A stretch of 50,713 nucleotides of DNA, taken from an uncultured Lachnospiraceae bacterium (GTDB taxonomy: Bacteria > Bacillota > Clostridia > Lachnospirales > Lachnospiraceae). The stretch lies in the NCBI GenBank assembly GCA_902762955.1, contig CACWQH010000015.1, positions 1 through 50,713 on the forward strand. Direction: 5' to 3'. This document shows, in pieces, positions 18,451 to 50,606 of this stretch (position 1 is the stretch's first letter; every line of letters begins with the position of its first letter). The translations under genes were made by a program, and so were the position numbers. The notes beneath the pieces are model-generated. The model was given only the letters and a program-made list of their open reading frames with translations. It had not been told where the DNA came from and did no database searches.

Positions 18451-19468
18451 TTAATCTTCTCCTAATATCTTTTTTGACACAATCCATTTTCCATTTCTCG
18501 ACGTACCCTCTCGCTTAATTATTTCTTTCTCTTTTAGATCTGAAATATATCTGTTAATCGTAGATCTTGGAATTTTAGTATTTTCAACTATTTCAGGTAT
18601 TGTAACGTTTTCATTGCGCAAAATTTCTCTTATAATTTTTTCTACTTTTTTACTTTTCATTGAGCTAAAAAATTCCATTATTTTTTTTATATCAGGCTCA
18701 TTTTCCGTTTTATTAGGCTCACTTTTTGATTCCAAAACCTCATTTTTCGTTTTATCAGGCTCATTTTTTGATTCCAAAACCTCATTTTTCGTTTTATCAG
18801 GCTCATTTTTTGAATTTAAAATATCATTTTCGTTTCTAAACTCCTTATGTATAAAAATTCTGCTGATAAAATAAGAATGGTCATCATCCGTCTCAAATTC
18901 AGGCATAGGAGAACCATTATCTATTATTGAATCAATAATCTTTTTGAATCCGGTATTTCTGCCTTCAGTTAAATGTAATTCTTTCAAAAACTCTCCAATC
19001 CGCCTATTTCGATATCTTCGATTAGTTACCTTATAACTCTTTAGTTGTTCTTTTGTAACCGACCTTACAGGCCCCGGAAAACTCAATATTTCTATTTTTT
19101 CATCATCAATCCTGACCTCAATCGGTTCACGCTCATCATACGCTTTGTGATAAACAGCATTTGCAAGTGCTTCTTCTACGGCAGCATATGGATAATTATA
19201 AATGTGATCAGCTTCAGCCCTATCAGGGCGCTTAATTATTTTTCTTTTTATGTATGAATTTTTTATATATCTAAGTGCATCCCTCAACTGCTGATCTATG
19301 GGGCCTTTAAATGTTTGTTCATCTATCACATCACCACCAAGACCATTTGGAAATGCTACAAATAGTTTTCAAAGACTCTTCCGGTTTCCAAGATGCCTTA
19401 AATTCAATTCTTGCCCATTCAACAACATTGCCTTTAAGTAGTGTATTAATATTAGTAGGAAGTCCCAT
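18451..19468 (-). pseudogene. AlbA_2/GHKL-type transcriptional regulator with internal deletion
   Basis: The N-terminal piece (ATG 19468 to stop 19331, AAAGGAG upstream) reads MGLPTNINTLLKGNVVEWAR and then IEFKASWKPEESLKTIC, the beginning of an AlbA_2 domain. It then loses frame. The other frame continues as AFPNGLGGDVIDEQTFKGP and on through a GHKL-like N-box (EEALANAVYH) to a C-terminal winged helix (IPRSTINRYISDLKEKEII). Intact relatives are about 450-550 residues, so roughly 150-250 codons between AlbA_2 and the ATPase part seem to be missing, together with a frame change. The remaining 3' frame (292 residues from a GTG at 19329) is open and could still yield an ATPase-wHTH fragment. A DNA-level tandem repeat lies in the linker. 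Confidence 0.75.
18695..18820 (-). repeat. 42-bp in-frame tandem repeat in the linker of the broken regulator
   Basis: Two near-perfect 42-bp units (18717-18758, 18759-18800) are flanked by partial units. Translated, the unit is NEPDKTKNEVLESK. Being a multiple of three it keeps the frame and would vary linker length by slippage. Confidence 0.85.
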
Positions 19469-19554: not shown

Positions 19555-22500
19555 TTAGTCTTCTTTTCTTCTCTTAAGAATAAAGAATATTAATCCTCCA
19601 ACTGCGAGTATAGCTGCTACTACTATAGCCCATATCCACCAGTGGCTGGCGGCCTTTTCAACTGCATCTGACACAGCTGTTGTAACACTTTTTTGCTCTT
19701 CACCAAAGGTAAATGTAATGGTCTGCTCTGCTTCATTTCCTGCCTCGTCAGTAGCCTTCATGTATAGCTTATACTCTCCCTTATCGGAAACACTTAAGGA
19801 AGCTACATTGTTTTTAACAGTAATAACTGTATCATTTAACTTAACCTCTTCAAGTGTATCCTCATCAAGCTGTAAGGAAACCTCTATGCTGTAGCTGTCA
19901 TTTCTTACCTCTCCATCCTCAACACCGGTTACGATAAATATCGGCTCCTTGGTATCAAGGACAAAGGTTGCACTCTTTTCACTTGTATGACCAAGCTCAT
20001 CCTCTGCTGTGATAAGAAGTGTATATGAACCATCCTCAATCTCTGAAATTCCATCATACTCACTACCGTTTAAGTACATACGCACCTGACATACGGTAAG
20101 GTCTGATACGATTTCATCAAGGTCGATATCAAGTCCGATATCCTCAAAGGACTTAGCATTGAAGGTCTTGCCATCATACATTGACAAATCGCCTATAACA
20201 GGATCTGAAGTATCGATAGTGAAATGAACACTGTTTGAAGTTACATTTCCTGCTATATCGGTTGCAGTCAATGTTATATCATATATTCCTTCTTCGCTAA
20301 ATGTATCATTTATGGTCGTAGGATTGGCAGTTGCTGCAAACGGTGAGAAGGAAAGCGCGGTCTTCTTGCCGGCGGCATCTGTTCTGGTACCCTGTATGGA
20401 AACCTTCTTGCTTGCATAAAACTCATCTTTTATTATTGCAGATATACTTACTGCACCATCTGTTGAATCATAATTATTGACTCCCGAAAGTGTTATCTCC
20501 GGTTTATTGACATCCACTGTAATCTTCTGGCTTGTAGTAGCTGTATGACCAACCTTGTCGTCGGCAGTGAATTCAAATCTGTATATTCCTGACTCTCTCA
20601 AAAGCTCTGACAATGAGTAAGCTCTCTGTGTAGGCGAGATAGTGAGTGTTTTATAAAGTGCCTCATCCACACCATCACCGGCCTTACGATATATCTCTAC
20701 TGTTCCCTTTGCATCTGACCAAAATGCTTCTGTAATATTGAAGCTGACTGAGGTTGCACTTGCTGCTGTTCCACCGGCACCTGTTATAGTAAGCTGTGGT
20801 GCAGTGGTATCAACTCTGAAGCTTATGGTTCTGGTTGGACCCTGGTTATTGGCCTTATCAATTGCAAATATATTTATCACATAATCTGCTTCATCAGCAA
20901 ATGTGAAGGTTCTTTCTCCTGTTGGAAGGAACTCTGAAGTTGTAGTTGCGGTATCAGGTACAGTCTTTATAACCTGAACTCTCAAATCTCCCGCATCCTC
21001 ATTTGTGTCAGAAACTGAAGCTGTAAAGGTAAGAGGTCCTGTAAGATTTAAGGTTCCTCTACTCTCATTATAAATCTGTCCGCCATTTACAAGGAGTGAA
21101 ACTGTAGGTACAGTCTTATCAATTGTAAATGTAACCTGTTTAGCCTGCGCTGATGTTCCGGCCTTATCATTTCCTGAAATTCTTATATTATGTAAGCCCT
21201 CTGCTGAAAGCGTTACATCTGCATAATACATATCATTTCCGGTTTTCCAATCAGCACTTATAGCTGAACCATTGTCAGTAACTGACATAGCAGCAGGATT
21301 AAAGTTGTTATCTTTACATGTAAGTCTTACAACAACGTCTGAATTATAATATCCGTTGTTCTTGCCTGTAGTTCCGCTTAAGATATTTGCAGTTACTATA
21401 GGAGCTGTGTTATCAACTATAAATGTGGTTGATGCGACATTGGAACTTCTTTCAGACTTATCTCTTGCTGAAATGCTTACTGTATATTTACCATCCTTAA
21501 GCTCTTTACTTCCAAGAACCTGCTGTAAGGTGTGGCTTATACTCTCTTGTGATGCATCCTTTTCTACTGAGACATGGTAATCTTCTACATACATCTCATC
21601 GTTGTACTTAACCGATACAGAATAATCCTTAACAGTAAGGTTATCGGTTATGTTTGATGTAAGCTGTGGTGTACCTGCTATAACTATACTTTCATCTACA
21701 GCCTCACCGTTTACCTTAATATCTGCTACAGTAGGATTAGTTTTGTCGACTTTAACATATATCTGATTTGTTGAAGTATCTATGGTATTATCAGCTTTAT
21801 CTTTTGCATCAAATACAATCTTTGTTCCTACAAGTGATGTAGATTCAGGAACATTTATAGATTGACCATCCTTGCTATGTGTTCCATCTATCTCAATTGC
21901 GGTTGCTGCACCACCATCTATAGTATAACTTGCATTTTCAAGTGCAGACTCTACAGCACTTTTGCCGGAAACAAGTGAGTAATTAAGCGGATATTCCTGA
22001 TACCATGTATTGGAATTTAATACACCGTTATTTTCAACTACCGGCTGAGTATTGTCATAAAGTAAATCTCCAAGAGCTATACTTTTAGTCCTTCCATTTG
22101 AATCTTCAATTTTAATACTCATAACACTTAACAATTGGTTTTCTGTGCCTATAGGAAGAACAAATGAGAGTTCCCCTGTTGTATATAAGCCCGTTACATC
22201 ATTATTCGAATTCCCAACATCAGTGCCGCTGTATGAATAATATATATCAGTACCTTTATATAATGTAACATTACTTATATCGTAACCTGATGTTGCCTGT
22301 AAAGAAATTGTATAAATTCCTTTATAATTTTTATTTTCAAAATAATTTGATATATCATCTCCTGCCTCTATATCTGCAGCAATTGATGTACCATTATATT
22401 TTATTGATTTAAGATTTGCAATTATAGCAGAATCAATTTCTTTAATAGGTGTAAGTGCCTGCGATACTGAATTACCCGCCTTATCTTCGACGACAGCAGT

Positions 22501-24240
22501 AAGGGAAATCATTGAAGCTGTATTAATTGAAGCAAAAGGAACAGTATATACATAAAATCCTTCTCCATCAGCCTCAGTAAATGTAAAGCTTTTCTTTTCA
22601 CCATTTTCATCATTAATCTTTAATGTCGAGAAATTAGTATCTGTTGCTTTGATTTTAAATCTTAAACCGTCAAATAAAACCCTATTAACTAAATAATTAC
22701 CATTAGTTAGGTCTGCTTCAGTAACAGTCTGCCAAACATCTGCTTCAGCTCCAACTGCATGTCTTTGGAGAATTACTTCATTTAACACAGGATCAATTGT
22801 GTCTAATGTAAATGTATTGGTGGTATATATTGTTACAGCATTATTTCCAGCCGCATCATAAGGAAATACATTCAAAGTATATGTTCCATCATAGGTATGA
22901 CCTGATAATGCTTCACCTGCTCCTCCAGGATTTAATACATTGCTCAAATTAAACGAATAATTACATGTTCCATTTTCTACAGTTGCAATAGGAATATCAA
23001 CCGCTGTTATATCTATACTATCCTTTGTTCCGGTTACATGAAGTTTCGCAACACCTGATGTTGTATCAGATGCTACACCGCTTAATCCAACATCATCGCT
23101 ATTATTAAGTTTAACAAAGCCTTCATCGGTTCTTCCTTCAACAGCCAAAGAAGAAATAGATGGATTTTCTGTATCTACGTTAAATGTAAATGTTCCATCT
23201 GATTCATTATTTACATTTCCAGCGGTATCTGTAGCAGTAATAACTATTGTATTTGACCCATTTTCTATGTTTGAAATTGTATATTCATCACCTGAACCAT
23301 GGGTAATTGTTGCGTAATTACCATTTACTTTAGCTGTTACAGTTGATAAATCCGATTCAATAACTGTACTATCTCCCGACTTTATTTCAAAAGAAATACT
23401 GTTCTCGTTATGCCAAATACTTTGATCTAATGTTCCAACTGAAATTGTAGGTTTTGTTTGATCATATCTTAATCCTTCACAAACCAAACTTGAAGAATTT
23501 TTTTCATCCGATGCTGAATAAATACTATTATTTAACGTATTATTAACATCACCTGAAATAGTATATCTACATGTGTATGTATATATACAATTTGATGCAT
23601 TAGTGTTTTTAGTTATTACAATACCTGTATTTGTATCTGTATATTCATCATCTGTTGCATTTACTACATCTAAATTTCCAACAGTTAAACCAAGTATATT
23701 TAATGACGTTAGTTTGTATCCAGAGGTAATAATAACCTCTAACACATCCCCTGAATTACACCATAAATCACTTGTAGTTGCTATTGACACTCCATCTAAA
23801 GTTGCTGTTCCAGTCAGCTCAAGGCTTGAATCATTGTCAAATACGATTGCTGGTAAAATTATATTTTCGCCATAATCTTCACCTGATTTCTTATATGCTA
23901 TTGTATGCTGATTTTGATCAATGTAGATTACACCATCATTCAGTCTATCATGTTCAGCATTATCAATTTTTATTTTTTCGATATTAGTGCCACAAGTTAT
24001 TTTCCATCTATATTCCCCATCTGTTTTAGTATGGTCAGCTGTCCACTCAACCTGTTCATCAGCTTTTGAACCATCACTATACTTAAATACTTTTTCGTAT
24101 GTTACAGAGTCTTCCCCCTCTGCCTTCGCGACATACTTCTTATCAAAATGGAAATATAAGGTGGTACCTACCATGACAACAGTAAGTAGCACGGCAATCA
24201 TCTTGTAAAGTAAACTTGTTTTCTTCCAAATTTCTTTCAT
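19555..24240 (-). CDS. Large Ig-repeat surface protein anchored in the membrane
   Basis: 1561 residues. It has an N-terminal signal/anchor helix (about 12-30) and a C-terminal membrane helix WWIWAIVVAAILAVGGLIFF followed by ILKRRKED, with the bulk outside the cell. The exposed part is a chain of bacterial Ig-like modules; eleven module borders with a D-x-(T/N)-x-P pattern can be counted (for example VDTENPSIS, VDKTNPTVAD, VDNTAPIVTA, VDTTAPQLTI, LDTKEPIFIV). Each is preceded by a TATDxAGN-type segment. There is no LPxTG sorting motif. AAAGGAG precedes the ATG. As last gene of the kinase-FHA operon, it may be the extracellular end or cargo of that signalling system; this is inference from location. 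Confidence 0.85.
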   Translation of the reverse strand: MKEIWKKTSLLYKMIAVLLTVVMVGTTLYFHFDKKYVAKAEGEDSVTYEKVFKYSDGSKADEQVEWTADHTKTDGEYRWKITCGTNIEKIKIDNAEHDRLNDGVIYIDQNQHTIAYKKSGEDYGENIILPAIVFDNDSSLELTGTATLDGVSIATTSDLWCNSGDVLEVIITSGYKLTSLNILGLTVGNLDVVNATDDEYTDTNTGIVITKNTNASNCIYTYTCRYTISGDVNNTLNNSIYSASDEKNSSSLVCEGLRYDQTKPTISVGTLDQSIWHNENSISFEIKSGDSTVIESDLSTVTAKVNGNYATITHGSGDEYTISNIENGSNTIVITATDTAGNVNNESDGTFTFNVDTENPSISSLAVEGRTDEGFVKLNNSDDVGLSGVASDTTSGVAKLHVTGTKDSIDITAVDIPIATVENGTCNYSFNLSNVLNPGGAGEALSGHTYDGTYTLNVFPYDAAGNNAVTIYTTNTFTLDTIDPVLNEVILQRHAVGAEADVWQTVTEADLTNGNYLVNRVLFDGLRFKIKATDTNFSTLKINDENGEKKSFTFTEADGEGFYVYTVPFASINTASMISLTAVVEDKAGNSVSQALTPIKEIDSAIIANLKSIKYNGTSIAADIEAGDDISNYFENKNYKGIYTISLQATSGYDISNVTLYKGTDIYYSYSGTDVGNSNNDVTGLYTTGELSFVLPIGTENQLLSVMSIKIEDSNGRTKSIALGDLLYDNTQPVVENNGVLNSNTWYQEYPLNYSLVSGKSAVESALENASYTIDGGAATAIEIDGTHSKDGQSINVPESTSLVGTKIVFDAKDKADNTIDTSTNQIYVKVDKTNPTVADIKVNGEAVDESIVIAGTPQLTSNITDNLTVKDYSVSVKYNDEMYVEDYHVSVEKDASQESISHTLQQVLGSKELKDGKYTVSISARDKSERSSNVASTTFIVDNTAPIVTANILSGTTGKNNGYYNSDVVVRLTCKDNNFNPAAMSVTDNGSAISADWKTGNDMYYADVTLSAEGLHNIRISGNDKAGTSAQAKQVTFTIDKTVPTVSLLVNGGQIYNESRGTLNLTGPLTFTASVSDTNEDAGDLRVQVIKTVPDTATTTSEFLPTGERTFTFADEADYVINIFAIDKANNQGPTRTISFRVDTTAPQLTITGAGGTAASATSVSFNITEAFWSDAKGTVEIYRKAGDGVDEALYKTLTISPTQRAYSLSELLRESGIYRFEFTADDKVGHTATTSQKITVDVNKPEITLSGVNNYDSTDGAVSISAIIKDEFYASKKVSIQGTRTDAAGKKTALSFSPFAATANPTTINDTFSEEGIYDITLTATDIAGNVTSNSVHFTIDTSDPVIGDLSMYDGKTFNAKSFEDIGLDIDLDEIVSDLTVCQVRMYLNGSEYDGISEIEDGSYTLLITAEDELGHTSEKSATFVLDTKEPIFIVTGVEDGEVRNDSYSIEVSLQLDEDTLEEVKLNDTVITVKNNVASLSVSDKGEYKLYMKATDEAGNEAEQTITFTFGEEQKSVTTAVSDAVEKAASHWWIWAIVVAAILAVGGLIFFILKRRKED

Positions 24241-24260: not shown

Positions 24261-25139
24261 CTATAGGCTTTCCTCTGTATGAACAATTACAACGTCATAT
24301 AAATATCTCTTGTCATTTTTATTATCTTTTATATTATCGGCTGAAAGAACTGTAGTTGCTTCTTCGTCCTTTTTGCCTGCTAATACGGTTGTTGCATCTT
24401 CATCATCGGAAGCTTTTAAGATGTCGGTTTCTTCATCGTCCGGCGTTCTTAAGACATCCGTTTCTTCTTCGTCGCCATCATCAGGTGCCCTTAGGACATC
24501 TGTTTCTCCGTCAGGATCGAAATCATCGTCTGCATCATCACTATCAGGTGCTCTTAGAACATCTGTCTCTCCATCAGGATCAAAGTCATCGTCTGCGCTG
24601 TCATCCGCTTTTAAGACATCCGTTTCTCCATCAGGATCGAAATCGTCTTCTTGGCTATCAGTCTTGCCCTTCGTGCTGCCAAGGATTGTTGTTTCCTCTT
24701 CGCCCTTCGAACCGCCGAGGATTGTTGTCTCTTCCTCACCCTTTGAACCGCCTGTCGAAGCTTTGTAGATGTCATCCTCATCTCCCGGTCTTAAAATATC
24801 TGTCTCTCTTTCTTCAGGCATTACCTGTGAAGATTCTTTATTGCTTGTAATCTTTGTCGTTTCTTCTTCGTTTGTAACAGAATCTCTAATGGTAATCTTA
24901 CCGGTATTTTGATTGTAATATTTTTTCTGCTCCTGCTTTAATATCTTACTGCTTTCACTCTTTTGAGTTCCGCCCTTTTTGTTTTTCTTTTCGGCTATTT
25001 CCTTACGGGCATTTCTTCCGGTCAAATCTCCTATTACCTTAGGGATCTTAAATACTATAAATAATATTATACTTACTATCAGAAATACTATGGCGAGTGT
25101 TAAACCGCCATAAAAGCATATATTGTAAATGTCTTTCAT
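24261..25139 (-). CDS. Membrane protein with ten Thr-x-x-Leu phospho-acceptor-like motifs
   Basis: 292 residues, no recognised family. One membrane helix (about 10-31) is followed by a basic segment and a long acidic, low-complexity cytoplasmic tail. The tail has ten motifs (E/A)T(T/D)(V/I)L, with the first Thr at 113, 138, 150, 173, 192, 213, 227, 238, 250 and 262; a variant ETTKI starts at T94. Three copies sit in the repeat DDFDPDGETDVL. A Thr with Leu/Ile at +3 in acidic context is the type of phosphopeptide bound by FHA domains. The gene lies directly after the Ser/Thr kinase gene (5 bp gap). I infer a substrate and docking scaffold. The ATG at 25139 fits AGGAG; a GTG at 25148 is too close to it. 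Confidence 0.7.
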   Translation of the reverse strand: MKDIYNICFYGGLTLAIVFLIVSIILFIVFKIPKVIGDLTGRNARKEIAEKKNKKGGTQKSESSKILKQEQKKYYNQNTGKITIRDSVTNEEETTKITSNKESSQVMPEERETDILRPGDEDDIYKASTGGSKGEEETTILGGSKGEEETTILGSTKGKTDSQEDDFDPDGETDVLKADDSADDDFDPDGETDVLRAPDSDDADDDFDPDGETDVLRAPDDGDEEETDVLRTPDDEETDILKASDDEDATTVLAGKKDEEATTVLSADNIKDNKNDKRYLYDVVIVHTEESL

Positions 25140-25144
25140 AGCTA

Positions 25145-27334
25145 TCACTCTCCTATCTCTTCATTTTCATCCGCTGCATCATCTGCGTCAGCTTCAGTAT
25201 TTTCTTCCGGTTCTTCTTCATCCTGCTTCTTCAAGGTTCCGCTTGCAAGTGAAGATACCGTATCCTTACGCTTTTTCCACGTCTTGTTACTGTCTATCGA
25301 AGGCACCTTCGAGCCCTCATCATATATGCTGATCAAGTCCGCCAATTCCTTCGGACACTGATCCGACCAATATGCAGGATCCTGATTAACCGCCTCGCAT
25401 ACGGTGTAAATGTAATCAAGGTGCTCGGCATATACCTTACCGCTAAGTACATTTCCGGTTCCAAGCACGCCCTCAAGCTCCTTATAGATTGCAAGAGCAT
25501 TGTCATACTCACCCATCTGCTCATAGCAGTAAGCTTTTTTCATCATCTTGTTGTAATAGCTTGTATTAAATATGTTGTCATTGTCTCCACCATATCCAAT
25601 CTCACCATTTTCCTCAACCTTTATGTCAAGGATTGTAAGATAATCATCGCAATAAGCTATAACCTCTTCATAGTAGGTATGTGCTTCTGACTCATTTTCA
25701 GTTATCTTTGCAAGCTGCTCATATATAACCGAAAGGTTATCATAGTAAGCATAGTAATAATCGTTGGTGTTAAGCTTTGTACCTGTATATTCATCCAGAT
25801 CCTCAACTGCCTGAGTCATTACCGTTTCAGCCTGCTTTGCAACACCCTCTGTATTGATATATGTAGCATATATCTGACCTATTGTCTTATAATTTATAAA
25901 TTTATTTTCATTTTGATTAGTATATTCACGCTGATTGTATTCTGCGAATTCATTTATCTTATCAAGCAACTCATCTATATTAACGGATGTACTTGAAAGG
26001 ATAAGTGATACCGAACCGTAATAATCCGCAAGCTCACCAAAGTTCTTATCCTTCTTGTCTATCATGTTGAAATATTTTGTCGCTGTCTTGTAATCATTTA
26101 ATTCATCAAAATATGTAATTGCCATCTTGTATAAAACTTCGTCGTTTTTATCGACATTTGCATATCCTGACTTAATACGGTTCGCAACAACATTTAATCC
26201 TGTCTGCAAATCAAGCGGTGTAGTTCCATCCTCTCTAAGCTCATGGGATGCATCTATATAGGTCTGTATAAATTTGTCGTATGCCTCTGCATCAGTACCA
26301 TCAAGCTCAAATGCTTTCTTATATTCCTCTACAGCGCTTGCATAATCTTCTTCAACCTTATAGTCATTACCTGCCTCTATGTAGGCATTGTAATTATCCA
26401 TCTTTATCTTCTTCAAACCGGAGTATCCGACAAATGCAGTTATACCGGCTGCTATGGTAAGTATTGAAGTTGTTATAAATAATCCAAGCTTTCTCTTATT
26501 TTTCTTCTTGTACGAATCATCCAGCTCCGTATAATGTTCAAGGTCATAAATAAGCTCTGAACAGTTCTGATATCTCTTCGCCGGATCATCCTCTGTACAC
26601 TTAAGAAGTATCTTCTCAAGTCCGGATGAAAGCATCGGATTCATCTCTCTTATAGGATGTACACCATACGGAGGATCACATGGATTGTTTCCTGTAACCA
26701 TATGATACATAGTTGCACCCAAGTTGTAGATATCCGTTCTTGCATCTGTATTGTATATACCACGTCCCTGCTTATCACCAAACTGCTCCGGTGCAGCATA
26801 TCCTCTTGTTCCAAGCGCTGTGGTATCGGCATTATTTTCAACGTCATACTCTTTGGCAGTACCAAAGTCTATAAGCTTAACTCCACCTTCAGGCTTGATC
26901 ATTACATTTGAAGGCTTCATATCTCTGTATATAACAGGAGGGTTCATGTTGTGGAGATAATCAAGTGCTCCCGCAAGCTGTATACCCCATTCAACCACAA
27001 GCTCCTGTGATTGTGCGCCTTCTTTCTTAAGTCTGTCGCTTATGGTTTCACCCTCGATGAAGTCCATAACAACATAAATAGTATTATCCTGATTTATGAT
27101 ATCAACAATTCGAGGAAGAACCGGGTGGTCAACATTTTTTAATATGTTAGCCTCTCTCTCGAGTCCCTTAAGCAATGTCTTTGCAGACTTTGAGCCGTCA
27201 TTTTTTATCTCTTTTACAGCCCACTGCTTGTTGAGTCGGTTATCTCTCGCAAGGTATACGATGGACATACCGCCTCGACCAACCTCTTTCCATATTTCAT
27301 ATTTACCGTCTAAAACAGTACCTTCTTTAGTCAT
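25145..27334 (-). CDS. Membrane Ser/Thr protein kinase with C-terminal TPR-like repeats
   Basis: 729 residues. The kinase domain (about 11-270) is complete: Gly loop GRGGMSIVY, Lys K41 in AVKE, catalytic YRDMKPSNV (D138, K140, N143; Tyr replaces the usual His), DFG at 156-158, and the activation segment TTALGTRGYAAPEQF with candidate autophosphorylation threonines. A single membrane helix follows at about 284-305. The rest, predicted outside the cell, holds TPR-like helical units (for example AYIEAGNDYKVEEDYASAVE, YKKAFELDG) and an acidic tail. There are no PASTA repeats, so it is unlike PrkC. It lies between a PP2C phosphatase and the TxxL protein. AAGGA precedes the ATG. Confidence 0.92.
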   Translation of the reverse strand: MTKEGTVLDGKYEIWKEVGRGGMSIVYLARDNRLNKQWAVKEIKNDGSKSAKTLLKGLEREANILKNVDHPVLPRIVDIINQDNTIYVVMDFIEGETISDRLKKEGAQSQELVVEWGIQLAGALDYLHNMNPPVIYRDMKPSNVMIKPEGGVKLIDFGTAKEYDVENNADTTALGTRGYAAPEQFGDKQGRGIYNTDARTDIYNLGATMYHMVTGNNPCDPPYGVHPIREMNPMLSSGLEKILLKCTEDDPAKRYQNCSELIYDLEHYTELDDSYKKKNKRKLGLFITTSILTIAAGITAFVGYSGLKKIKMDNYNAYIEAGNDYKVEEDYASAVEEYKKAFELDGTDAEAYDKFIQTYIDASHELREDGTTPLDLQTGLNVVANRIKSGYANVDKNDEVLYKMAITYFDELNDYKTATKYFNMIDKKDKNFGELADYYGSVSLILSSTSVNIDELLDKINEFAEYNQREYTNQNENKFINYKTIGQIYATYINTEGVAKQAETVMTQAVEDLDEYTGTKLNTNDYYYAYYDNLSVIYEQLAKITENESEAHTYYEEVIAYCDDYLTILDIKVEENGEIGYGGDNDNIFNTSYYNKMMKKAYCYEQMGEYDNALAIYKELEGVLGTGNVLSGKVYAEHLDYIYTVCEAVNQDPAYWSDQCPKELADLISIYDEGSKVPSIDSNKTWKKRKDTVSSLASGTLKKQDEEEPEENTEADADDAADENEEIGE

Positions 27335-27373: not shown

Positions 27374-28147
27374 TTAAACAGTTTTAATCAACCCAACTGT
27401 AATGTTATCTGTTTCTTTTCTTTGTTTCACAAGCTCTGTAAGATATATACATCCATCCTTCATACTTTCCTCATCCGGTGTATTTTTCGGACCGATTTTT
27501 GCAATCATTTCTTCCTCACTAATCTGGTGTCTGAATCCATCCGAGCATACCATATATGTTGTATTTGGCATTACCACACCCGTTGAAAATTCAGGCTCTA
27601 CCACTTCCGATGCTCCGACACATTGGAGCAATACGCTCCTTCGAGGATCTGTTTTTGACTGTTCTACCGTCATGCGACCTGCCGCAATTTCTCTTGCTAT
27701 AAATGTCTGGTCGTTTGTCAAAAGGTATATGTTATTTCCCGTAATCTGATATATTCTGCTATCGCCTACATGAATTATATAGTATCTGCCCTTATACAAA
27801 AGAATAGCTGATATGGTGGTTCCAAGCTGCAGATTATGTTCTTTTCCGAATTCCCCAAGCTTTTTGTTTTGAGTCTGGATAATCTGGTTCCATTCATCAT
27901 TTAGCTTGAAGGTGTCATACTCTCCATCCTTTACCGCATCCATAAATGTTCTGTCAAACCAGTTCATAAATGCAAGTATTACTTCTTTACTTGCCAGCTC
28001 TCCCTTGGAAAGTCCTCCCATTCCGTCACATACTATTCCAAACGCAGCCTGTCCCTGATTCGTTTCGACAATTTTAATTCCAAGCGAATCCTGATTAGTC
28101 TTTTTTGTTAATCCTACATCCGTATGATAAGCCGCTGTGTAATTCAT
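27374..28147 (-). CDS. PP2C-family Ser/Thr protein phosphatase
   Basis: Metal-dependent phosphatase of 257 residues that should oppose the adjacent kinase. PP2C motifs are present: TDVGLTKKTNQDS (metal-binding region), VCDGMGG (Asp and Gly-Gly), LGTTISAILL, HVGDSRIY, LTNDQTF, VCSDGFRHQI and the final KETDNITVGLI. It is soluble. I chose the ATG at 28147, 7 nt after AGGAG; longer in-frame starts further up have no ribosome binding site. Confidence 0.93.
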   Translation of the reverse strand: MNYTAAYHTDVGLTKKTNQDSLGIKIVETNQGQAAFGIVCDGMGGLSKGELASKEVILAFMNWFDRTFMDAVKDGEYDTFKLNDEWNQIIQTQNKKLGEFGKEHNLQLGTTISAILLYKGRYYIIHVGDSRIYQITGNNIYLLTNDQTFIAREIAAGRMTVEQSKTDPRRSVLLQCVGASEVVEPEFSTGVVMPNTTYMVCSDGFRHQISEEEMIAKIGPKNTPDEESMKDGCIYLTELVKQRKETDNITVGLIKTV

Positions 28148-28248
28148 GCTTAATCTCCTCATAATTTGTTGATTTTTCGTTAATTTTCTAAATGTATTTA
28201 AAAACATGTCCAGCCGGACTATATTTTTATAATCCGGCTATGACTTTA

Positions 28249-30093
28249 TTATTCTTTTCTAAGAAGGAAGGTAAATTCTTCATCTCCCATTCTAACTGTT
28301 GTCTTATTTTTAAGAAGAACTTCTTTTTCAGGCTCAAGCTCTACTCCATCAAGATATGTATGGTTGGTAGAATTGTTGTCCTTGATGTAATTAACTCCGT
28401 TCTTCTGAATTATTATACAATGAACTCTGCTGACAGCAGTATTGTCTGTTATTGTATAATCCGCCTTTGACTCTGATTTTCCTATAGAAAATTCAGGCTT
28501 TGTAATATTTATAATCTCACCTGTTTTAACTCTGACAAGATGAGGTACCGGTTTTTCGCTAAGCTGACCCACTAATCCTCCCATCATAGGTGCAGATCCT
28601 CCCTGTGGTGGTATAGGAGTTGCCTGTGGTATAGGTGGCGCCTGTGGTATAGGAGCTGCCTGTGGTATAGGTGGTGCCTGTGGTGCAGCTGGTGCCTGCG
28701 GAATTGGATTCTCCTTTGGCTCCGGCTTAAACGGTTCAGTTAATTCCTGCGTATTCTGCTGTTCTGAAACTATAGGCTTAACCTCCTCCGGCTTTTCTTC
28801 AGGTATAGTTTTAGCCTCCGGTATAATTTTTGTTTCAGGTATATTTTCAGGATTAGGTGCCGTCTCTGCTACAGGTTCCGGTTTTGATTCCTCTTTTGGC
28901 TCTGGAACGATTTCAGTTTTTGCTCCCATAGGCGGCTGCTGTCCCATCATCGGTGGCACTCCCATCATAGGAGGCACTTGTCCCATCATTGGAGGCACGC
29001 CAGGTTTTGGTGGCTGCTTTCCCATCATTGGTGGTACATCTGCCTTTGGTGCCTGTGGTGATTGCTGTCCCATCATAGGTGGCACGCCAGGTTTTGGTGG
29101 CTGCTGTCCCATCATAGGCGGCTGGCCTGGCATAGGTGGTCTTTGTCCCATCATCGGTGGCTGACCTTGCATTGGCTGACCTTGCATAGGTGGCTGCTGT
29201 CCCATCATTGGTGGTTGCTGGCCTGGCATAGGTGGTCTTTGTCCCATCATTGGAGGCTGACCTTGCATAGGTGGTCTTTGACCCATCATTGGTGGTTGAC
29301 CAGGCATCGGCTGACCTTGCATAGATGGTTGCTGCCCCATCATCGGTGGTTGACCGGGCATCGGCTGACCTTGCATAGGTGGTTGCTGGCCCATCATAGG
29401 CGGCTGACCAAACTGTGGTGGTCTTGAGTTTTGCATATTGTTCATTACTCCAAGTCTGTTTACCTTAACTGCCTTGGTTTGTCCTGCATCTCCACCTGCA
29501 TCCATACTTGTAAGTCCTCTATCCTTGCTGATAAAAAGACCCATTTTTTCAAGCTCATCATCAATGTAGTTTTTAAGCTTAAGTGTAGAAAAATCTTTTG
29601 TATTTATAATTGTAAGAATTTTTGCAACATAATTATCCATATCTATCTCATCAAAAGACATTCTGGATATAACATTTCTGAAGAAATCAGGAATTTCTGA
29701 AAGTGCTATAGCCTCCTGCTTTACAGGTACCAATACACACTTTACTCCCAAGGTTTCTTCATTGACATATATGTAATTAAAATCCTTTAATACATAGCTT
29801 ACAGGGATTCCCTGTGTGCCCATGTCAAATATAGATATAAGTTCTCCTAAAAGACATAAAACCTCTCTTTTCTGTAAGGTCTTGGATAAAAGCATCTCCA
29901 GACTGTAATTTTCTCTGACATAGGTGGTGATAATTCTCTTTCCACCCTGATTGTCAAATTGGAACGGAATTACATTTGCCAATTGACTAACCTTGTCGGC
30001 TATCCTTTCATCGTATTCTTCATTTCCAAGAAGCTCATACCTTATAACGTCATACCCATTTTCCTTTGTTACGGATAAATCAAGTTTTTTCAT
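28249..30093 (-). CDS. FHA-domain protein with DUF6382-like N-terminus and Pro/Met/Gln-rich linker
   Basis: 614 residues. The N-terminal ~190 residues resemble the DUF6382 region that precedes FHA domains in Clostridia. The middle (about 220-390) is a low-complexity linker with twelve PPMMG units separated by GQQPPMQGQPMPG-like spacers, followed by an acidic segment and PQAPPIPQA repeats. The C-terminus is an FHA domain (about 515-614) with IGKSESKADY, SRVHC and STNHTYLDG. FHA domains bind phosphothreonine, so it is a probable reader of the kinase encoded downstream. GGAGGGG stands before the ATG at 30093; another ATG at 30108 overlaps the stop of the previous gene (TAATG) and remains possible. 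Confidence 0.88.
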   Translation of the reverse strand: MKKLDLSVTKENGYDVIRYELLGNEEYDERIADKVSQLANVIPFQFDNQGGKRIITTYVRENYSLEMLLSKTLQKREVLCLLGELISIFDMGTQGIPVSYVLKDFNYIYVNEETLGVKCVLVPVKQEAIALSEIPDFFRNVISRMSFDEIDMDNYVAKILTIINTKDFSTLKLKNYIDDELEKMGLFISKDRGLTSMDAGGDAGQTKAVKVNRLGVMNNMQNSRPPQFGQPPMMGQQPPMQGQPMPGQPPMMGQQPSMQGQPMPGQPPMMGQRPPMQGQPPMMGQRPPMPGQQPPMMGQQPPMQGQPMQGQPPMMGQRPPMPGQPPMMGQQPPKPGVPPMMGQQSPQAPKADVPPMMGKQPPKPGVPPMMGQVPPMMGVPPMMGQQPPMGAKTEIVPEPKEESKPEPVAETAPNPENIPETKIIPEAKTIPEEKPEEVKPIVSEQQNTQELTEPFKPEPKENPIPQAPAAPQAPPIPQAAPIPQAPPIPQATPIPPQGGSAPMMGGLVGQLSEKPVPHLVRVKTGEIINITKPEFSIGKSESKADYTITDNTAVSRVHCIIIQKNGVNYIKDNNSTNHTYLDGVELEPEKEVLLKNKTTVRMGDEEFTFLLRKE

Positions 30094-30107
30094 TGCATAC
30101 CCCTCCA

Positions 30108-31916
30108 TTATCTTATCTTAAATAAAAATTCTTCATCCCCAAGTTTGATAGTCGAGTCATGAGTAAGAATCTCTTCTTTACCTTCTTCTACTTCTTTATC
30201 ATTAACATACGTATGATTTGTTGATTTATTATCTTTAATGTAACATACCCCATCCTTTTGTGTAATAATAGCATGTTGTCTGCTTACAGCACCATTTCCG
30301 CTTACCGAATAATCAACACCTCTTGAGGCTTTTCCGATTTTAAATACTGCCTTGTTAAGCATAATTCTTTCTTCAGTATTTACTCTTATAAGATAAGGCA
30401 TAGCCTTTGGTGCATTGAGTAAGGTATTGGATTTAACAGGCTCTGCCGGTTTAGTCTCTTGTGCAACAGCTTCTTTTGTATCTGCATTCTTTTCTGTCTT
30501 TGCCTTATTTAAATCTTCTTCTGAAAGCTCTTCGGTTTCAGCTTCATGCTCTGCTATACTCTGTATGATAGCTGCTCTGTTTACCTTAACAACATTTTTC
30601 TTTGGAGGCTGGTTTTTGCTCGTATCAAGCATTTCCTCCAGATCCGCAAGTGTCTTTACCTTCTTTGGATCATCTGTGGTCTTGGCAGTCGGAACATCTC
30701 CTACAAGCTGTTTTATCTTATTCTTTATTACATCCAAATCCTCTTCCTTCTTAGCCGGTGCAGGCTTTGGAGCATCTTCAGGCTTTGATATAGGCTCTAA
30801 TTTAGGTTCTTCCTCAGTCTTCTTGAGTATATCCTCAGTAACTGTTATCTCAGGAATCTCTGCAGGCTCGTCCTTTACATCAGAAGCTGTCTCTTCAGCT
30901 TTTTGAGTTTCCTCATCTTCAGAAGCTTCCTTAATTACTTCTTCTGCTTTTTCTTCAGCAGTTTCTGGCGGAGCCTGAATATCTTCTACAGCAGCTTTCT
31001 CTGTTGTTTCTTCAACAGACTCAGCTTCTTTCTCTGTTGCTTCTGCTTTTTCTTCAACAGGCTCTACTTCCTCATTGTTATGAATATTATCTATATCTTC
31101 AATTACATTTTCCGTTTCGGTTTCCGGTGCTTTCATACCTGCCGGAAGGATACTATCAAGCTCTCCGTCCTCCACAGGAGGTTCTTCATCTTCATCAGCC
31201 TCGTCATCACCAATTTCAGGAAGCGGTTCATCATCTACATCACTCATAAAGTCAGTAACCTTAGATTCTGCTTTTTCTTCAACTTCTTTCTCCGGTGCTT
31301 CATTTACTATCTCCACACCCTCTGTCTCAATTGTACCGGCTTCTTCATGCTCTATGCCGGCTTCCTCCATCAAGGCTTCGGTCAATCCGACAAGTCCTCT
31401 CAAATTAAAATTATCTCCGTTTATATAGGTGAGAAGCTTACCGACAAAGCTTAAATCCTCATCTACGTTATATTTCATATTGGCAAGTAATTGTCTTAAA
31501 AATCCTTTGAATTCTACTGAAAGGGAACCCTTATTTTCTACAGGAACACATATAAAGAATACGTCATTATTTTTTCCCACATATACATATTCTCTGTTCA
31601 GTAAAATATATGAAAGATGTATCGCCTGCTCTTTAATGGAGATAAGGTTGCCGGCAACATTTCTCACTATGAAAAGTGCCTGTTCGCTGCTTACCTCATC
31701 AGCCATCAAATCCTTAAGGGAAACCTTATCCGTTATGTCATAGGTAAGATAGTCATAATCATCATCTTCCTCGTAGATGATATCAACCAGCTCCTTTACC
31801 TCATTTTCCTCACAATAATCAAGTACATCTTCATCAAGCTCTGTTTCTTCCCCCATAGTATAGGTCAGATATTTTTCCTGCCCTATATTTCTTGCCTTGA
31901 AATAAAACGTTCTCAT
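30108..31916 (-). CDS. FHA-domain protein with DUF6382-like N-terminus and acidic linker
   Basis: 602 residues, first gene of the kinase operon. The N-terminal ~190 residues match the same DUF6382-like region as its downstream neighbour. The linker (about 200-500) is very rich in Glu, Ala, Lys and Pro and likely disordered. The C-terminal FHA domain (about 505-602) has IGKASRGVDY, SRQHA and STNHTYVND. The two FHA proteins are paralogues that kept both ends but differ completely in the linker. GAGGGAC is near the ATG at 31916, and a good promoter lies 30-58 bp upstream. Confidence 0.88.
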   Translation of the reverse strand: MRTFYFKARNIGQEKYLTYTMGEETELDEDVLDYCEENEVKELVDIIYEEDDDYDYLTYDITDKVSLKDLMADEVSSEQALFIVRNVAGNLISIKEQAIHLSYILLNREYVYVGKNNDVFFICVPVENKGSLSVEFKGFLRQLLANMKYNVDEDLSFVGKLLTYINGDNFNLRGLVGLTEALMEEAGIEHEEAGTIETEGVEIVNEAPEKEVEEKAESKVTDFMSDVDDEPLPEIGDDEADEDEEPPVEDGELDSILPAGMKAPETETENVIEDIDNIHNNEEVEPVEEKAEATEKEAESVEETTEKAAVEDIQAPPETAEEKAEEVIKEASEDEETQKAEETASDVKDEPAEIPEITVTEDILKKTEEEPKLEPISKPEDAPKPAPAKKEEDLDVIKNKIKQLVGDVPTAKTTDDPKKVKTLADLEEMLDTSKNQPPKKNVVKVNRAAIIQSIAEHEAETEELSEEDLNKAKTEKNADTKEAVAQETKPAEPVKSNTLLNAPKAMPYLIRVNTEERIMLNKAVFKIGKASRGVDYSVSGNGAVSRQHAIITQKDGVCYIKDNKSTNHTYVNDKEVEEGKEEILTHDSTIKLGDEEFLFKIR

Positions 31917-46253: not shown

Positions 46254-47648
46254 TTATCCTACAAAAAATTCTTCATTTGCAAGTCTTATAATATCTCCTA
46301 TACTTACAAGTTTTTCTTCATATGCTTCAAGTTTTGATGCATTTATGTATGTACCGTTTGTTGAATTTTGATCCTTAATATATACCCCGTCTGACTTTAT
46401 TATTATACTTGCATGAATCCTGCTTATCTGTTCTTTATTTATTCTATAATCCGTTTCATTTTTTCCACGTCCTATAACAGTTTCTTTTTTATCCGGATTT
46501 ATCACTATAGGTTCAAGCATGCCATCATTAAGCGGAATTAGTTTATACTCTTTTTTATTCATGCTTATATTCATTTTGTTGGTTTCACGATTATTATATT
46601 CATAAGTGAAATTGTTAGATATATAATCAACATCTTCATAAGTATTAATATTATCTTTATGATTAATACTTTCACAATAATCCATATCATTATTTATTTT
46701 GTATCTTTCTTCGAATTCCTTCATTGACTTATCTATATCGATTTCATCCCCTTTCTCTTTTTTAAAAATATATACAAATGAATTTATCACAAGACTAATT
46801 ATCGAAATAAGAAACAAAAGAAATATTACCTTTTCTTTATTTATAAATAAAAATGTTAAAAATAATATTCCTGAAACAGCGGCATTTATCCCTATTATTA
46901 CCTCATACCTGCTTTCTTCTTTAACTATCTTTGCATCATCCTCTTCTAAAGAGGTCTCCTTTTTTTTCATACGATTCCCTTTTTCATTGAAATCCTTATT
47001 GACATAACCGACATTATTCTCCACATTTTTGACAAGCGAAAAATTATCAGAACTATCTAAGAGCTTATATTTAAGCCTATCAACGCCTTTCTCACCCATC
47101 GCATCCGAAACATATCTTTCCAATTCGTTAATATCAAAGTCTTCCCCGGTAATCAATTCATATATATGATGAAGCGTCATAACCCCATCTGCACTTTTGT
47201 AATCAAAAATGCGCATTATATATTCTATAAAATATTTCAACTGGTATTGTATTTTTTTATTGTAAAAAGGAGCATATATAATTCTAACCTTTTGGTCTTT
47301 GTAGTCCCACAGCATATAATCCGGTGAGATAACCAGATCATCCGTATTTAGTAAAAACTGTTCAGATATTTTTACGCAAGCACAAACAGATTTTAATATA
47401 TTTTTTAATACGGTTATATCAGGCTTTGATTTAAGAAAAAATTTATCCAACACAAACAAAGAATTGACCTGATATCTTAAAAATAAATCATTATCCAGTT
47501 TGCTGACAGCCGGTTTGATTATTTCCCCTATCTCATTATCTTCAAGCATTCTTATAACATAATTATTCTTCGATACATTAAAATCTTTTTCGTTTATGCA
47601 TACTTCGATGTAATTATTTACACCCTTACTCCCGTAATAAATCTCCAT
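46254..47648 (-). CDS. DUF6382-FHA protein of the tad locus
   Basis: 464 residues. The N-terminal ~200 residues are the best DUF6382-like stretch in the window (MEIYYGSKGVNNYIEVCI, YMLWDYKDQKVRIIYAPFY, IEYIMRIFDY). Two membrane helices lie at about 245-285 (YEVIIGINAAVSGILFLTF, VIFLLFLISIISLVINSF). The C-terminal FHA domain (about 375-464) has VIGRGKNETDYRI, SRIHA and STNGTYINA, the standard FHA motifs. I chose the ATG at 47648, which follows AGGAGA and overlaps the TadE gene by 23 bp; longer frames reach 47747 but would overlap by 122 bp and lack good sites. Confidence 0.82.
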   Translation of the reverse strand: MEIYYGSKGVNNYIEVCINEKDFNVSKNNYVIRMLEDNEIGEIIKPAVSKLDNDLFLRYQVNSLFVLDKFFLKSKPDITVLKNILKSVCACVKISEQFLLNTDDLVISPDYMLWDYKDQKVRIIYAPFYNKKIQYQLKYFIEYIMRIFDYKSADGVMTLHHIYELITGEDFDINELERYVSDAMGEKGVDRLKYKLLDSSDNFSLVKNVENNVGYVNKDFNEKGNRMKKKETSLEEDDAKIVKEESRYEVIIGINAAVSGILFLTFLFINKEKVIFLLFLISIISLVINSFVYIFKKEKGDEIDIDKSMKEFEERYKINNDMDYCESINHKDNINTYEDVDYISNNFTYEYNNRETNKMNISMNKKEYKLIPLNDGMLEPIVINPDKKETVIGRGKNETDYRINKEQISRIHASIIIKSDGVYIKDQNSTNGTYINASKLEAYEEKLVSIGDIIRLANEEFFVG

Positions 47649-48036
47649 ACAATTGCCATCTCCTAAGTCTTTGTGTACATTTATCATATTCTCTTTTGTA
47701 ACACACATTCTCTCCCTGATATCTGTATATGCTTCCTCCGTTAACATTTTGAGTTCTTATGTATGCCGCAAGCTCCCCTGATACGATACCGATGCTCACA
47801 TCCGGAGTATTTCCTGTTCCCACCATCTCAGTTTCAAGATTTGAATTCATTTTATTATTTATTTTTTCTTCATTATCTCCTACTGAAATTTCATATATAC
47901 CCAAGTAGCCATCTCCTTGTACCACTGCATCATTTATAACATCCAAAAACAAAAATATGACTGCAACTATAATAAAAATCAATATAGGCATGATAAAAGT
48001 AACTTCAACTATTGTACTTCCCTTGTTGTTTTTCAT
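47626..48036 (-). CDS. TadE-like pseudopilin
   Basis: 136 residues. N-terminus MKNNKGSTIVEVTFIMPILIF and a hydrophobic helix typical of TadE/TadF minor pilins, with Glu at position 5 of the mature-like segment (GSTIVEVTF). The rest is predicted outside the membrane and ends in a basic stretch (KCTQRLRRWQLYGD). It lies between a longer TadE-like gene and the FHA gene in the tad/flp run. Confidence 0.8.
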   Translation of the reverse strand: MKNNKGSTIVEVTFIMPILIFIIVAVIFLFLDVINDAVVQGDGYLGIYEISVGDNEEKINNKMNSNLETEMVGTGNTPDVSIGIVSGELAAYIRTQNVNGGSIYRYQGENVCYKREYDKCTQRLRRWQLYGDLLRE

Positions 48037-48050
48037 TTTGTCCTCCTCTT

Positions 48051-48782
48051 TTAGTCACAACATCTGCTGCACGCCGGCAGTCCTGATACCTCGCTTAATT
48101 TAACAATGTATACCGTACGTTTAAGTCCGCTGCATGCTTTACTCGAATGATACCTTCCTCCCTCATCAGTTATATAAACTGTATTCTCTGCTTTATCACC
48201 GCAAAATTCACAAGGTGAGAATCCATAATTTTGAGCACATTTTAAACTTGTCTGATGGATGGAAAGCTTTAAATGTGTACAGTTTCTGCTGCTATGATAT
48301 ACCTCCCTGTTATCTGTTACATATACATACTTATCTTCATCCGGACATTCATCTTTTCCGTTATCTTCCCCTTCACCGATATAGGCTCTTTGCTTTATGA
48401 TTATCTGTCTTTTTTTACTGAGCGAAGGCATCATAGGGATGTCAACATTAAGTGTATAATTAACCTTTAATACCACATAATTATCGCTGTCCCTTGTTAT
48501 AGTTCCAAAGTAGTCTATTCCTTTTATTCCGCCATCAATACTTTCGTTAACCAGTTCCTTATTATCTATATATTGAGACATTACCATACCCGGCATCAGA
48601 ATATTAGGTTCATCCAGATACGAATATTCCGCCATATATTCAGCAGTTTCGGAAGCCGCTTCATATATAATCCCCTCTGCAAGCTTACATCTGCACATGC
48701 TGTATATTGCAAGCATCGCAAAAAGAAAAACAGGAATAATCAATGTAGCTTCTACAACCGCACTTCCTAAATTATTTTTCAT
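48051..48782 (-). CDS. TadE-like pseudopilin with duplicated Cys-His motif domain
   Basis: 243 residues. N-terminus MKNNLGSAVVEATLIIPVFLF is the TadE-type helix. After about 120 residues come two copies of a small module: VYVTDNREVYHSSRNCTHL ending in CEFC, and VYITDEGGRYHSSKACSGL ending in CSRC. Pattern: VY(V/I)T, YHSS, C, L, then CxxC. This suggests metal binding or disulphide formation on the cell surface. The ATG overlaps the stop of an upstream open frame (ATGA). Confidence 0.78.
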   Translation of the reverse strand: MKNNLGSAVVEATLIIPVFLFAMLAIYSMCRCKLAEGIIYEAASETAEYMAEYSYLDEPNILMPGMVMSQYIDNKELVNESIDGGIKGIDYFGTITRDSDNYVVLKVNYTLNVDIPMMPSLSKKRQIIIKQRAYIGEGEDNGKDECPDEDKYVYVTDNREVYHSSRNCTHLKLSIHQTSLKCAQNYGFSPCEFCGDKAENTVYITDEGGRYHSSKACSGLKRTVYIVKLSEVSGLPACSRCCD

Positions 48783-48988
48783 AACTTATCGTCTCCAAAA
48801 GTCAAAAATATGCAATCTATATAATACGCATTATCCAAATCACCCAAACATTTTAAATTCATATAACTATCTGTCGATTTGATTTTTGTTTTAATATCCC
48901 CTGCCCCGTGGTCTGCACCCGGAGAGGATTTGATTAATTGATAAAGGCAGGAGACATTAAGACAACCATCAAACCTAATAGCCTCCGC
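48779..48988 (-). other. Open frame without standard start between the DUF5702 and TadE genes
   Basis: A 69-codon open frame fills the gap between the DUF5702 stop and the next gene and ends in TGA overlapping the next ATG, as coupled genes do. It reads FDGCLNVSCLYQLIKSSPG, later DSYMNLKCLGDLDNAYYIDC. No ATG, GTG or TTG occurs in its first ~45 codons, so full translation would need an ATT or CTT start or a frameshift. It may be a gene remnant or chance. Confidence 0.25.
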
Positions 48989-50447: not shown

Positions 50448-50606
50448 ACTCTCCTCCATGATTTTTTGTGATACAATTATTTATATAATTAAACGGAGTG
50501 CATAACATATAAAAAAAACAATTAATTTCAAAAAACTTCAACCCTAATAAATAATCTAAAAATATGAAAATACTACTTATTACGATTGGTGACTTTATGA
50601 ATAAAA

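Follow-up and report, generated by a model that had tools for sequence, protein, structure and literature searches.

The window, meaning the whole 50,713-nucleotide stretch of an uncultured Lachnospiraceae genome (contig CACWQH010000015.1) that was analysed, carries on its minus strand genes for two FHA-domain adaptors, a PP2C phosphatase, a Ser/Thr kinase, a single-helix membrane protein with an acidic, repetitive tail (the tail protein), and a large Ig-like surface protein. Genes of these types occur in T7SSe, a secretion variant in which they are called TseJ, TseF, TseD, TseH and TseI (Garrett, Higginson and Palmer 2024, PMC11217815), and the window genes are named here by likeness to those components:

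19555..24240, minus strand: large Ig-like surface protein (TseI-like), 1561 aa, with a C-terminal membrane helix (Big_13, 5e-30)
24261..25139, minus strand: tail protein (TseH-like), 292 aa, with one membrane helix and an acidic ten-motif tail
24264..24308, minus strand: conserved C-terminal element of the tail protein, RYLYDVVIVHTEESL (family form ...I..IHT[DE]E.[IL])
24345..24803, minus strand: ten-motif tail segment (T-x-[VI]-L), residues 113-265
25041..25106, minus strand: membrane helix of the tail protein, residues 12-33, followed by a conserved basic juxtamembrane stretch, IPKVIGDLTGRNARKEI
25145..27334, minus strand: membrane Ser/Thr kinase (TseD-like) with a kinase domain (Pkinase, 1.1e-45), one predicted helix, and a TPR region predicted to lie outside
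27374..28207, minus strand: PP2C phosphatase (TseF-like; PF13672, 7.8e-11)
28249..30108, minus strand: adaptor (TseJ-like) with a C-terminal FHA domain at 28285-28488 (FHA, 3.1e-14)
30108..31916, minus strand: DUF6382-FHA adaptor (TseJ-like) with an FHA domain at 30138-30341 (FHA, 1.8e-14; DUF6382, 5.4e-12)

The open reading frame of the tail protein runs from an ATG at 25139 to a stop at 24261. The kinase gene stops 5 nt ahead of this ATG, and the PP2C gene and the two FHA genes lie further upstream on the same strand. Thus, the first-pass annotation, which gave no strand, correctly placed a kinase directly upstream and two FHA proteins in the same operon. Its description of one membrane helix and an acidic tail is also confirmed: the helix is hydrophobic, and residues 106-275 contain 62 D/E versus 16 K/R. 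By the positive-inside rule, the basic flank of a membrane helix faces the cytoplasm. Since the tail protein has 1 K/R in residues 1-12 and 9 K/R with 3 D/E in residues 34-60, its tail is predicted to be cytoplasmic. An AlphaFold2 model generated without an alignment consists of one helix (residues 2-55), with a block-mean pLDDT below 60 from residue 51 on; this low confidence fits a disordered tail, as expected, without proving disorder. In an alignment of 28 sequences from the genus (A1), residues I32, P33, L39, G41, and A44 are invariant. Searches with the tail protein returned only sub-cut-off DUF4834 in Pfam and only matches far below cut-off in NCBIfam.

The window kinase contains the catalytic Lys, Asp, and Asp-Phe-Gly of an active Hanks-type kinase (K41, D138, and D156-F157-G158), residues that are invariant among the 31 kinase domains of a second alignment (A2). 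Judged by these catalytic residues, the kinase of the set is predicted to be active. The gene order recurs in 16 loci fetched from the genus, at up to 20 kb each and with some cut at contig or stretch ends. The kinase and PP2C genes are present in 16/16 and the Ig-like protein in 15/16 (absent from L063), while the tail protein was detected by BLAST in 15/16 and by a weak match in L063 (genome G027). MltG precedes the set in all 11 genus loci that reach that far. A second PP2C gene is found beyond the Ig-like protein in 12 of the 16 (L048-L053, L055-L057, L061-L063), or, in the case of L063, beyond the tail protein; the window holds a HATPase_c_4/HTH gene (18451-19329) at this place.

The tail contains ten T-x-[VIL]-L motifs, with Thr at residues 113, 138, 150, 173, 192, 213, 227, 238, 250, and 262, and no further TxxL. 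These are exactly the positions given in the first-pass annotation, and all ten fit its pattern, (E/A)T(T/D)(V/I)L; in the first motif, RETDIL, an Arg precedes the Glu. When the protein after residue 36 was shuffled 2000 times, the mean was 0.23 motifs and the maximum 3. In a comparison of 36 window genes (15033 aa), none besides the tail protein exceeds 3 T.[VIL]L, and the single other [DEAG]T.[VI]L lies in the Ig-like protein. Matches to the tail protein at E 0.01 are present in 35 of 37 genomes of the genus, the source genome included. Each of 30 genus tail proteins (28 complete and 2 cut by contig ends) has 4-15 T.[VIL]L, and in no case was the count reached in 2000 shuffles. The residue preceding x-[VI]-L in the genus is Thr 272 times and Ser 5 times, and T138, T150, T173, T192, T227, T238, and T262 are conserved in at least 90% of the genus alignment.

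Conservation of the motif relative to the rest of the tail was assessed in 42 genus orthologue pairs of 60-93% identity. Of 785 aligned cells holding a motif Thr, 95% retain it, versus 51% of 444 for other tail Thr and 32% of 622 for other Ser, and motif Leu is kept in 95% of 782 cells versus 72% of 158 for other Leu; the size of this effect is approximate because the pairs are not independent and the alignment anchors on the repeats, which may inflate the figures. A different synonymous codon is used by 62% of the kept motif Thr. Thus, the motif, whose fate in orthologues the first-pass annotation had singled out as a check, is kept within the genus while the other parts of the tail drift.

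To counter the bias of searching with the tail protein itself, a second sample of loci was chosen without reference to the motif. It consists of the best 80 of 580 confirmed kinase matches in named genomes, with A2 as the query; because A2 is derived mostly from kinases beside tail proteins, the sample covers that kinase class. The genera represented in these best 80 of 580 include Bacillus, Ornithinibacillus, Thomasclavelia, Konateibacter, Pseudobutyrivibrio, Butyrivibrio, and Lachnoanaerobaculum. The downstream protein was selected by a script (helix score and distance) or, for L175, by hand. Four loci (L165, L186, L202, L205) duplicate DNA already contained in the order search described below, and L130 and L131 may come from genus genomes G033 and G031.

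A helix protein shorter than 500 aa that starts no more than 170 nt from the kinase stop is present in 76 of the best 80 loci; among the other four, L156 and L157 end at a contig edge, L187 has a short kinase frame and a helix protein 259 nt away, and in L200 no helix protein was seen. At least one TxPhi[LF] occurs in 69 of these 76 tails, with up to 17 per tail. The total of 326 in the 76 proteins compares with a shuffle mean of 21.9 and a maximum of 39 (500 shuffles), and 54/76 are individually unusual at 1%. The post hoc choice of motif was countered by scoring residue pairs at gaps of 1-6; among pairs seen at least 20 times in the 76 proteins, the top one is T..L at +3 (z 44.9). The position before x-[VI]-L (twelve residues counted) in this best-80-of-580 sample is occupied by Thr 263 times, Asn 8, Glu 7, Ser 5, Asp 5, Arg 5, and Val 1, and the 76 tails contain in total 1323 Thr, 1051 Ser, and 824 Val. 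The commonest residues around the motif are E-E-E-T-[E/D/T]-V-L. The 76 proteins are related: single linkage at 40% identity places them in 10 clusters, the largest with 66 members; the motif is present in most members of 6 clusters and not so in 4. Chance or low complexity as the source of the motif is rejected on the basis of the shuffles, the pair enrichment, and the conservation in orthologues, and the ten-motif observation is, at the level of sequence, real and more than chance.

Tails lacking TxPhi[LF] are found in 7 of the 76 proteins from the best 80 of 580 matches (L167, L175, L182, L194, L195, L198, L208), so the tail protein must also have a function beyond the motif. Looser TxxL sequences are present in L208 (TVPL, TLPL, TKAL, and others), L198 (TVKL), and L175 (TDML and TACL), and the L194 protein is cut by a contig end. 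The L182 protein is 71 aa long, with only the helix and the C-terminal element and no TxxL. The Actinomycetota side (T7SSd/TsdH) was compared through one Coriobacteriales MAG, L167, the only Coriobacteriales member of these best 80; its tail is without the motif, and its sole TxxL, TGQL, lies near the membrane. A C-terminal element with an end of the H/N-T/S-x-[DE] type (one pattern) occurs in 51 of the 76 proteins. Since this element, of the type I..IHT[DE]E.I, is kept where motifs are absent, as in L182, it probably has a role of its own.

The neighbors of the kinase are also recurrent in the best 80 of 580 matches. A PP2C gene is adjacent in 77/80 loci, and a BLAST-linked relative of the Ig-like protein is present in 57/80, upstream of the kinase in 4. 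An FHA gene lies upstream on the same strand in 67/80, and 13/80 have none in the available flank. A search of 11 of these 13 genomes (all except those of L146 and L189) detected FHA domains elsewhere in every one; no FHA domain was seen in ten large genes that lie upstream in nine of the loci. Closely following the tail protein, 18 of the best 80 loci encode a member of a family of multi-helix membrane proteins of ~170 aa, for example L166:10187-10696.

Relatives of the tail protein were also sought in the order and the phylum. A profile of the genus proteins at E 0.001 matched 35 of 392 genomes in the order, including the source genome and one other genus member. Follow-up covered 32 loci outside the genus, leaving out G250 and G278, whose 62-63-aa frames match only the helix. 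The match starts -60 to +200 nt from a same-strand kinase in 30/32 loci and at -82 and +209 in the others; among the 30, to which alone neighbors were credited, a PP2C gene is adjacent in 28 and an FHA gene lies no more than 4.5 kb upstream in 20. TxPhi[LF] occurs in 27/32 of these proteins and TxxL in 30/32. In a wider profile of 36 proteins (A4), the 35 others are 16-49% identical to the window tail protein, and 34 of them are only 16-32% identical, with unrelated spacers in which the motif recurs. Three columns of A4 are invariant: a membrane-proximal Gly plus both Thr and Leu within a single motif. The family search for motif counts suggested in the first-pass annotation thus gives 4-15 per protein in the genus, and the majority of distant relatives keep both the motif and the gene neighbors. 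At E 1e-5 the A4 profile matched 42/392 genomes in the order versus 4/398 across the phylum, source genome included, indicating that, at this sensitivity, the family is sparse outside the order.

FHA domains are strongly specific for Thr, with the +3 residue as a key determinant (PMC11884936, PMC3953482). The tail motif favors Thr over Ser and has an almost fixed Leu at +3, both features that an FHA partner reading phosphothreonine would impose. The canonical FHA pocket, as described for Rad53, consists of G69, R70, S85, H88, and N107, with R70 binding the phosphate (PMC5549992). Fetched loci yielded 132 FHA domains, 126 of them distinct and a few not adaptors of this set. Judged from sequence only, the pocket Ser, His, and Asn are kept in 123, 126, and 124 of the 126, both window operon domains included. 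The position of the phosphate-binding Arg is occupied by Lys in 114 of them; the remaining 12 have Arg (9), Thr (2), or Gln (1). Both window operon domains have this Lys, after the Gly, in place of the canonical Arg; an FHA domain from the genus relative L126 has Arg.

The DUF6382 region (window 31317-31916) was modeled from 53 sequences with a mean pLDDT of 89.5. Compared with known structures, the model is kinase-like: the TraF N-terminal domain, the YukC/EssB pseudokinase, and, in third place, the Rv3910 kinase-homology domain are its best matches (E 2e-5 to 1e-4, TM ~0.5, 10-15% identity), and many true kinases rank after them. Because the DUF6382 consensus contains no obvious HRD or DFG, this kinase-like domain is likely a pseudokinase. 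The N-terminus of the other adaptor (28249-30108) resembles DUF6382 only at E 0.035, below cut-off. Residues ~230-390 of this adaptor form a PPMMGQ-repeat linker, likely disordered, in which PPMMG occurs 12 times and other Gly-Gln units, PMQGQ- or PMPGQ-like, 8 times.

Taken together, the tail protein is probably a TseH-type membrane scaffold, whose cytoplasmic tail would serve as a docking array for FHA adaptors, written by the kinase and erased by the phosphatase. The upstream kinase probably receives an envelope signal through the part predicted to lie outside and would phosphorylate Thr at the E-E-x-T-x-V-L motifs. The DUF6382-FHA adaptors encoded in the same set would then bind the phosphothreonines through their FHA domains, reading the Leu at +3, and several adaptors with their kinase-like (probably pseudokinase) domains would gather at the membrane until the co-encoded PP2C phosphatase undoes the phosphorylation. 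The copy number of the motif would thus set the valency, making the tail a multi-site, switchable platform. As for the output, control of the Ig-like surface protein or of envelope assembly is a guess from gene order. This phospho-docking proposal, first made in the first-pass annotation, is partly supported: it passed the sequence tests that were tried, with reservations about the pocket Arg and the motif-less minority.

Comparison with T7SSe bears on what such a platform would serve. In PMC11217815, T7SSe contains the same gene types: a DUF6382-FHA protein, a PPM phosphatase, a membrane kinase, a single-helix protein with an unstructured cytoplasmic part, and a large Ig-like protein with a C-terminal helix. 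The window locus encodes the kinase and PPM phosphatase (TseD and TseF) and a large Ig-like protein with a C-terminal helix (TseI), and its protein at 30108-31916 combines DUF6382 and FHA as in TseJ. The assignment of the tail protein to TseH is by description (single helix, unstructured cytoplasmic region) and gene order, and TseK is similarly described. The T7SSd counterpart of TseH, TsdH, is reported to have one helix and a short, likely unstructured region, whereas the window protein has ~240 residues after the helix. The window kinase also has a TPR region, a feature reported in PMC11217815 for TsjD of T7SSj, a system without TseH. Two further defining components were not detected in the source genome, which is 89% complete: for WXG100 (TseA, TseA2; PF06013) the best match has E 0.0125 and none is over cut-off, and for the EssC-type ATPase (TseC) there is no relative at E 1e-20 of the single ATPase used as query, from L104. 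FtsK_SpoIIIE does match above cut-off twice in the source genome, in open reading frames 905 and 466 aa long. Relatives of the L104 ATPase were not found in 11 of 19 genus genomes searched, namely the source genome and ten that are at least 97% complete; in the 8 others the ATPase lies on a different contig from the tail-protein set. Consequently, the window locus is best called, from its gene content, a regulatory set of the T7SSe type in which no secretion engine was detected; the engine seems dispensable for this locus and may be needed for others.

Elsewhere, an EssC-type ATPase is found in 7 of 36 loci (L096, L104, L107, L112, L117, L120, and L128 among L093-L128), and the kinase-anchored locus L161 has both an ATPase and a WXG100 gene. 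The set is present twice in genome G023: besides the main copy there is a second one, linked to an ATPase, which includes a tail protein with four TxxL. In this second copy, a further, different kinase gene (L128:1512-3437) lies between the ATPase and the Ig-like gene.

These loci, together with the match of gene types to TseJ/F/D/H/I, favor an explanation in which TseH is a structural part of T7SSe and its tail regulates or assembles the apparatus via FHA domains, for example on the TseC ATPase. For the window locus this explanation is weakened by the absence of detected WXG100 or ATPase from the source genome and of the ATPase from the ten nearly complete relatives, by its location on other contigs elsewhere, and by its presence in the flank of just 5 of the best 80 of 580 loci, many of whose flanks are short; it is judged improbable. 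Only slightly better is the prospect that T-x-x-L is an unphosphorylated short linear motif that binds another partner, for example by strand addition, with the kinase neighborhood being incidental. The predominance of Lys over Arg in the FHA pocket would suit such motifs, as would a C-terminal element that looks strand-forming and persists where the motifs are absent. However, a simple preference for beta-branched residues would not exclude Val at position 0, and the counts there in the best-80-of-580 sample (Ser 5 and Val 1 versus Thr 263) point instead to a phosphothreonine reader; the frequent pairing of PP2C with the kinase likewise argues for reversible phosphorylation within the set. 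On balance, unphosphorylated motifs are thus an unlikely explanation.

The least probable explanation, to be given very little weight, is that the tail is an acidic low-complexity stretch enlarged by tandem duplication, with the motif count as a by-product. It has in its favor that FDPDGETDVLRAP in the window looks like recent tandem copies and that near-identical units occur in L015 and L021. It is already contradicted by the sequence comparisons: the motif recurs among unrelated spacers in the distant tails of A4, T..L leads the pair enrichment among the best 80 of 580 kinase matches, and most kept motif Thr are encoded by another codon. The docking array remains the preferred reading. A more specific form of it, put forward tentatively and somewhat more likely to fail than to hold, is a stand-alone membrane platform, adjacent to T7SS in some genomes and apparently without T7SS in others, in which near-identical phosphothreonine sites of variable number, here ten, would gather pseudokinase-FHA adaptors in reversible clusters beneath the Ig-like surface protein, with a Lys-type FHA domain as the reader and the motif number tuning the threshold.

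Several known systems share parts of this layout. In Mycobacterium tuberculosis, the Rv1747 ABC transporter with PknF and PstP likewise combines a membrane protein, a disordered cytoplasmic stretch, FHA, a kinase, and a phosphatase, and Rv1747 forms phosphorylation-dependent condensates in vitro and membrane clusters (PMC9312465). However, Rv1747 has FHA and the disordered linker in one protein, whereas the window encodes separate readers and regular repeat sites. In the type VI system of Agrobacterium tumefaciens, PpkA activity is needed for phosphothreonine on the membrane protein TssL, which an FHA protein then binds; this involves one site (Thr14) rather than ten, and the membrane protein is unrelated (PMC3953482). 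The TQXF and acidic SDT repeats of MDC1, which involve RNF8, PELI, and NBS1, are repeated phosphosites read by FHA domains with +3 specificity (PMC11884936), although MDC1 is a eukaryotic nuclear protein with another kinase and motif. The MviN (Rv3910) pseudokinase and FhaA pair a kinase-like fold with FHA in a phosphorylation-dependent envelope complex (PMC12599244), while TseJ has both domains in one chain and the docking tail is on a third protein. Finally, PknA-dependent Thr sites of M. tuberculosis are enriched for acidic residues at -1, -3 to -6, and +7, Leu/Val at +3, Lys/Arg at +4, and Pro at -1 and +2 (PMC7164672). The tail motif, from another phylum, shares the acidic run and Leu +3; Arg/Lys is present at +4 in 6/10 window motifs but not widely in the family, Pro +2 is lacking, and Pro at -1 and +2 is not typical.

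The first-pass annotation knew of no described system with this exact layout. That claim stands in part: the five gene types are already known from PMC11217815, and multi-site FHA/phosphothreonine scaffolds are known in Rv1747 and MDC1, but the literature searched yielded no account of the repeat or of its preference for Thr, nor of the set occurring without the ATPase. Within that literature PMC11217815 is the only paper using DUF6382; its main text has 0 occurrences of 'txxl', and it raises phospho-control only as a possibility. The tail provides a specific, experimentally testable candidate substrate and docking motif for a set of kinase, phosphatase, and FHA genes that, among the best 80 of 580 matches, is found in Lachnospiraceae, some Bacillus species, and other Bacillota. 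The same matches provide a natural series of 0-17 motif copies per tail for relating valency to clustering in bacteria, and the findings suggest that the set occurs independently of the secretion system with which it was named.

Further kinase and FHA genes lie elsewhere in the source genome. A second cluster (L044, C16:15000-34999) encodes two kinases, one carrying a fused FHA domain, along with a PP2C and FHA proteins. In the window itself, the region 46254-50459 includes a third DUF6382-FHA protein, this one with the canonical Arg, near TadE-like (below cut-off) and DUF5702 genes. The kinase set of L166 borders on a DUF5702 gene and on one for a prepilin-type peptidase, and these neighborhoods hint at a link between the kinase set and Tad-like pilus genes.
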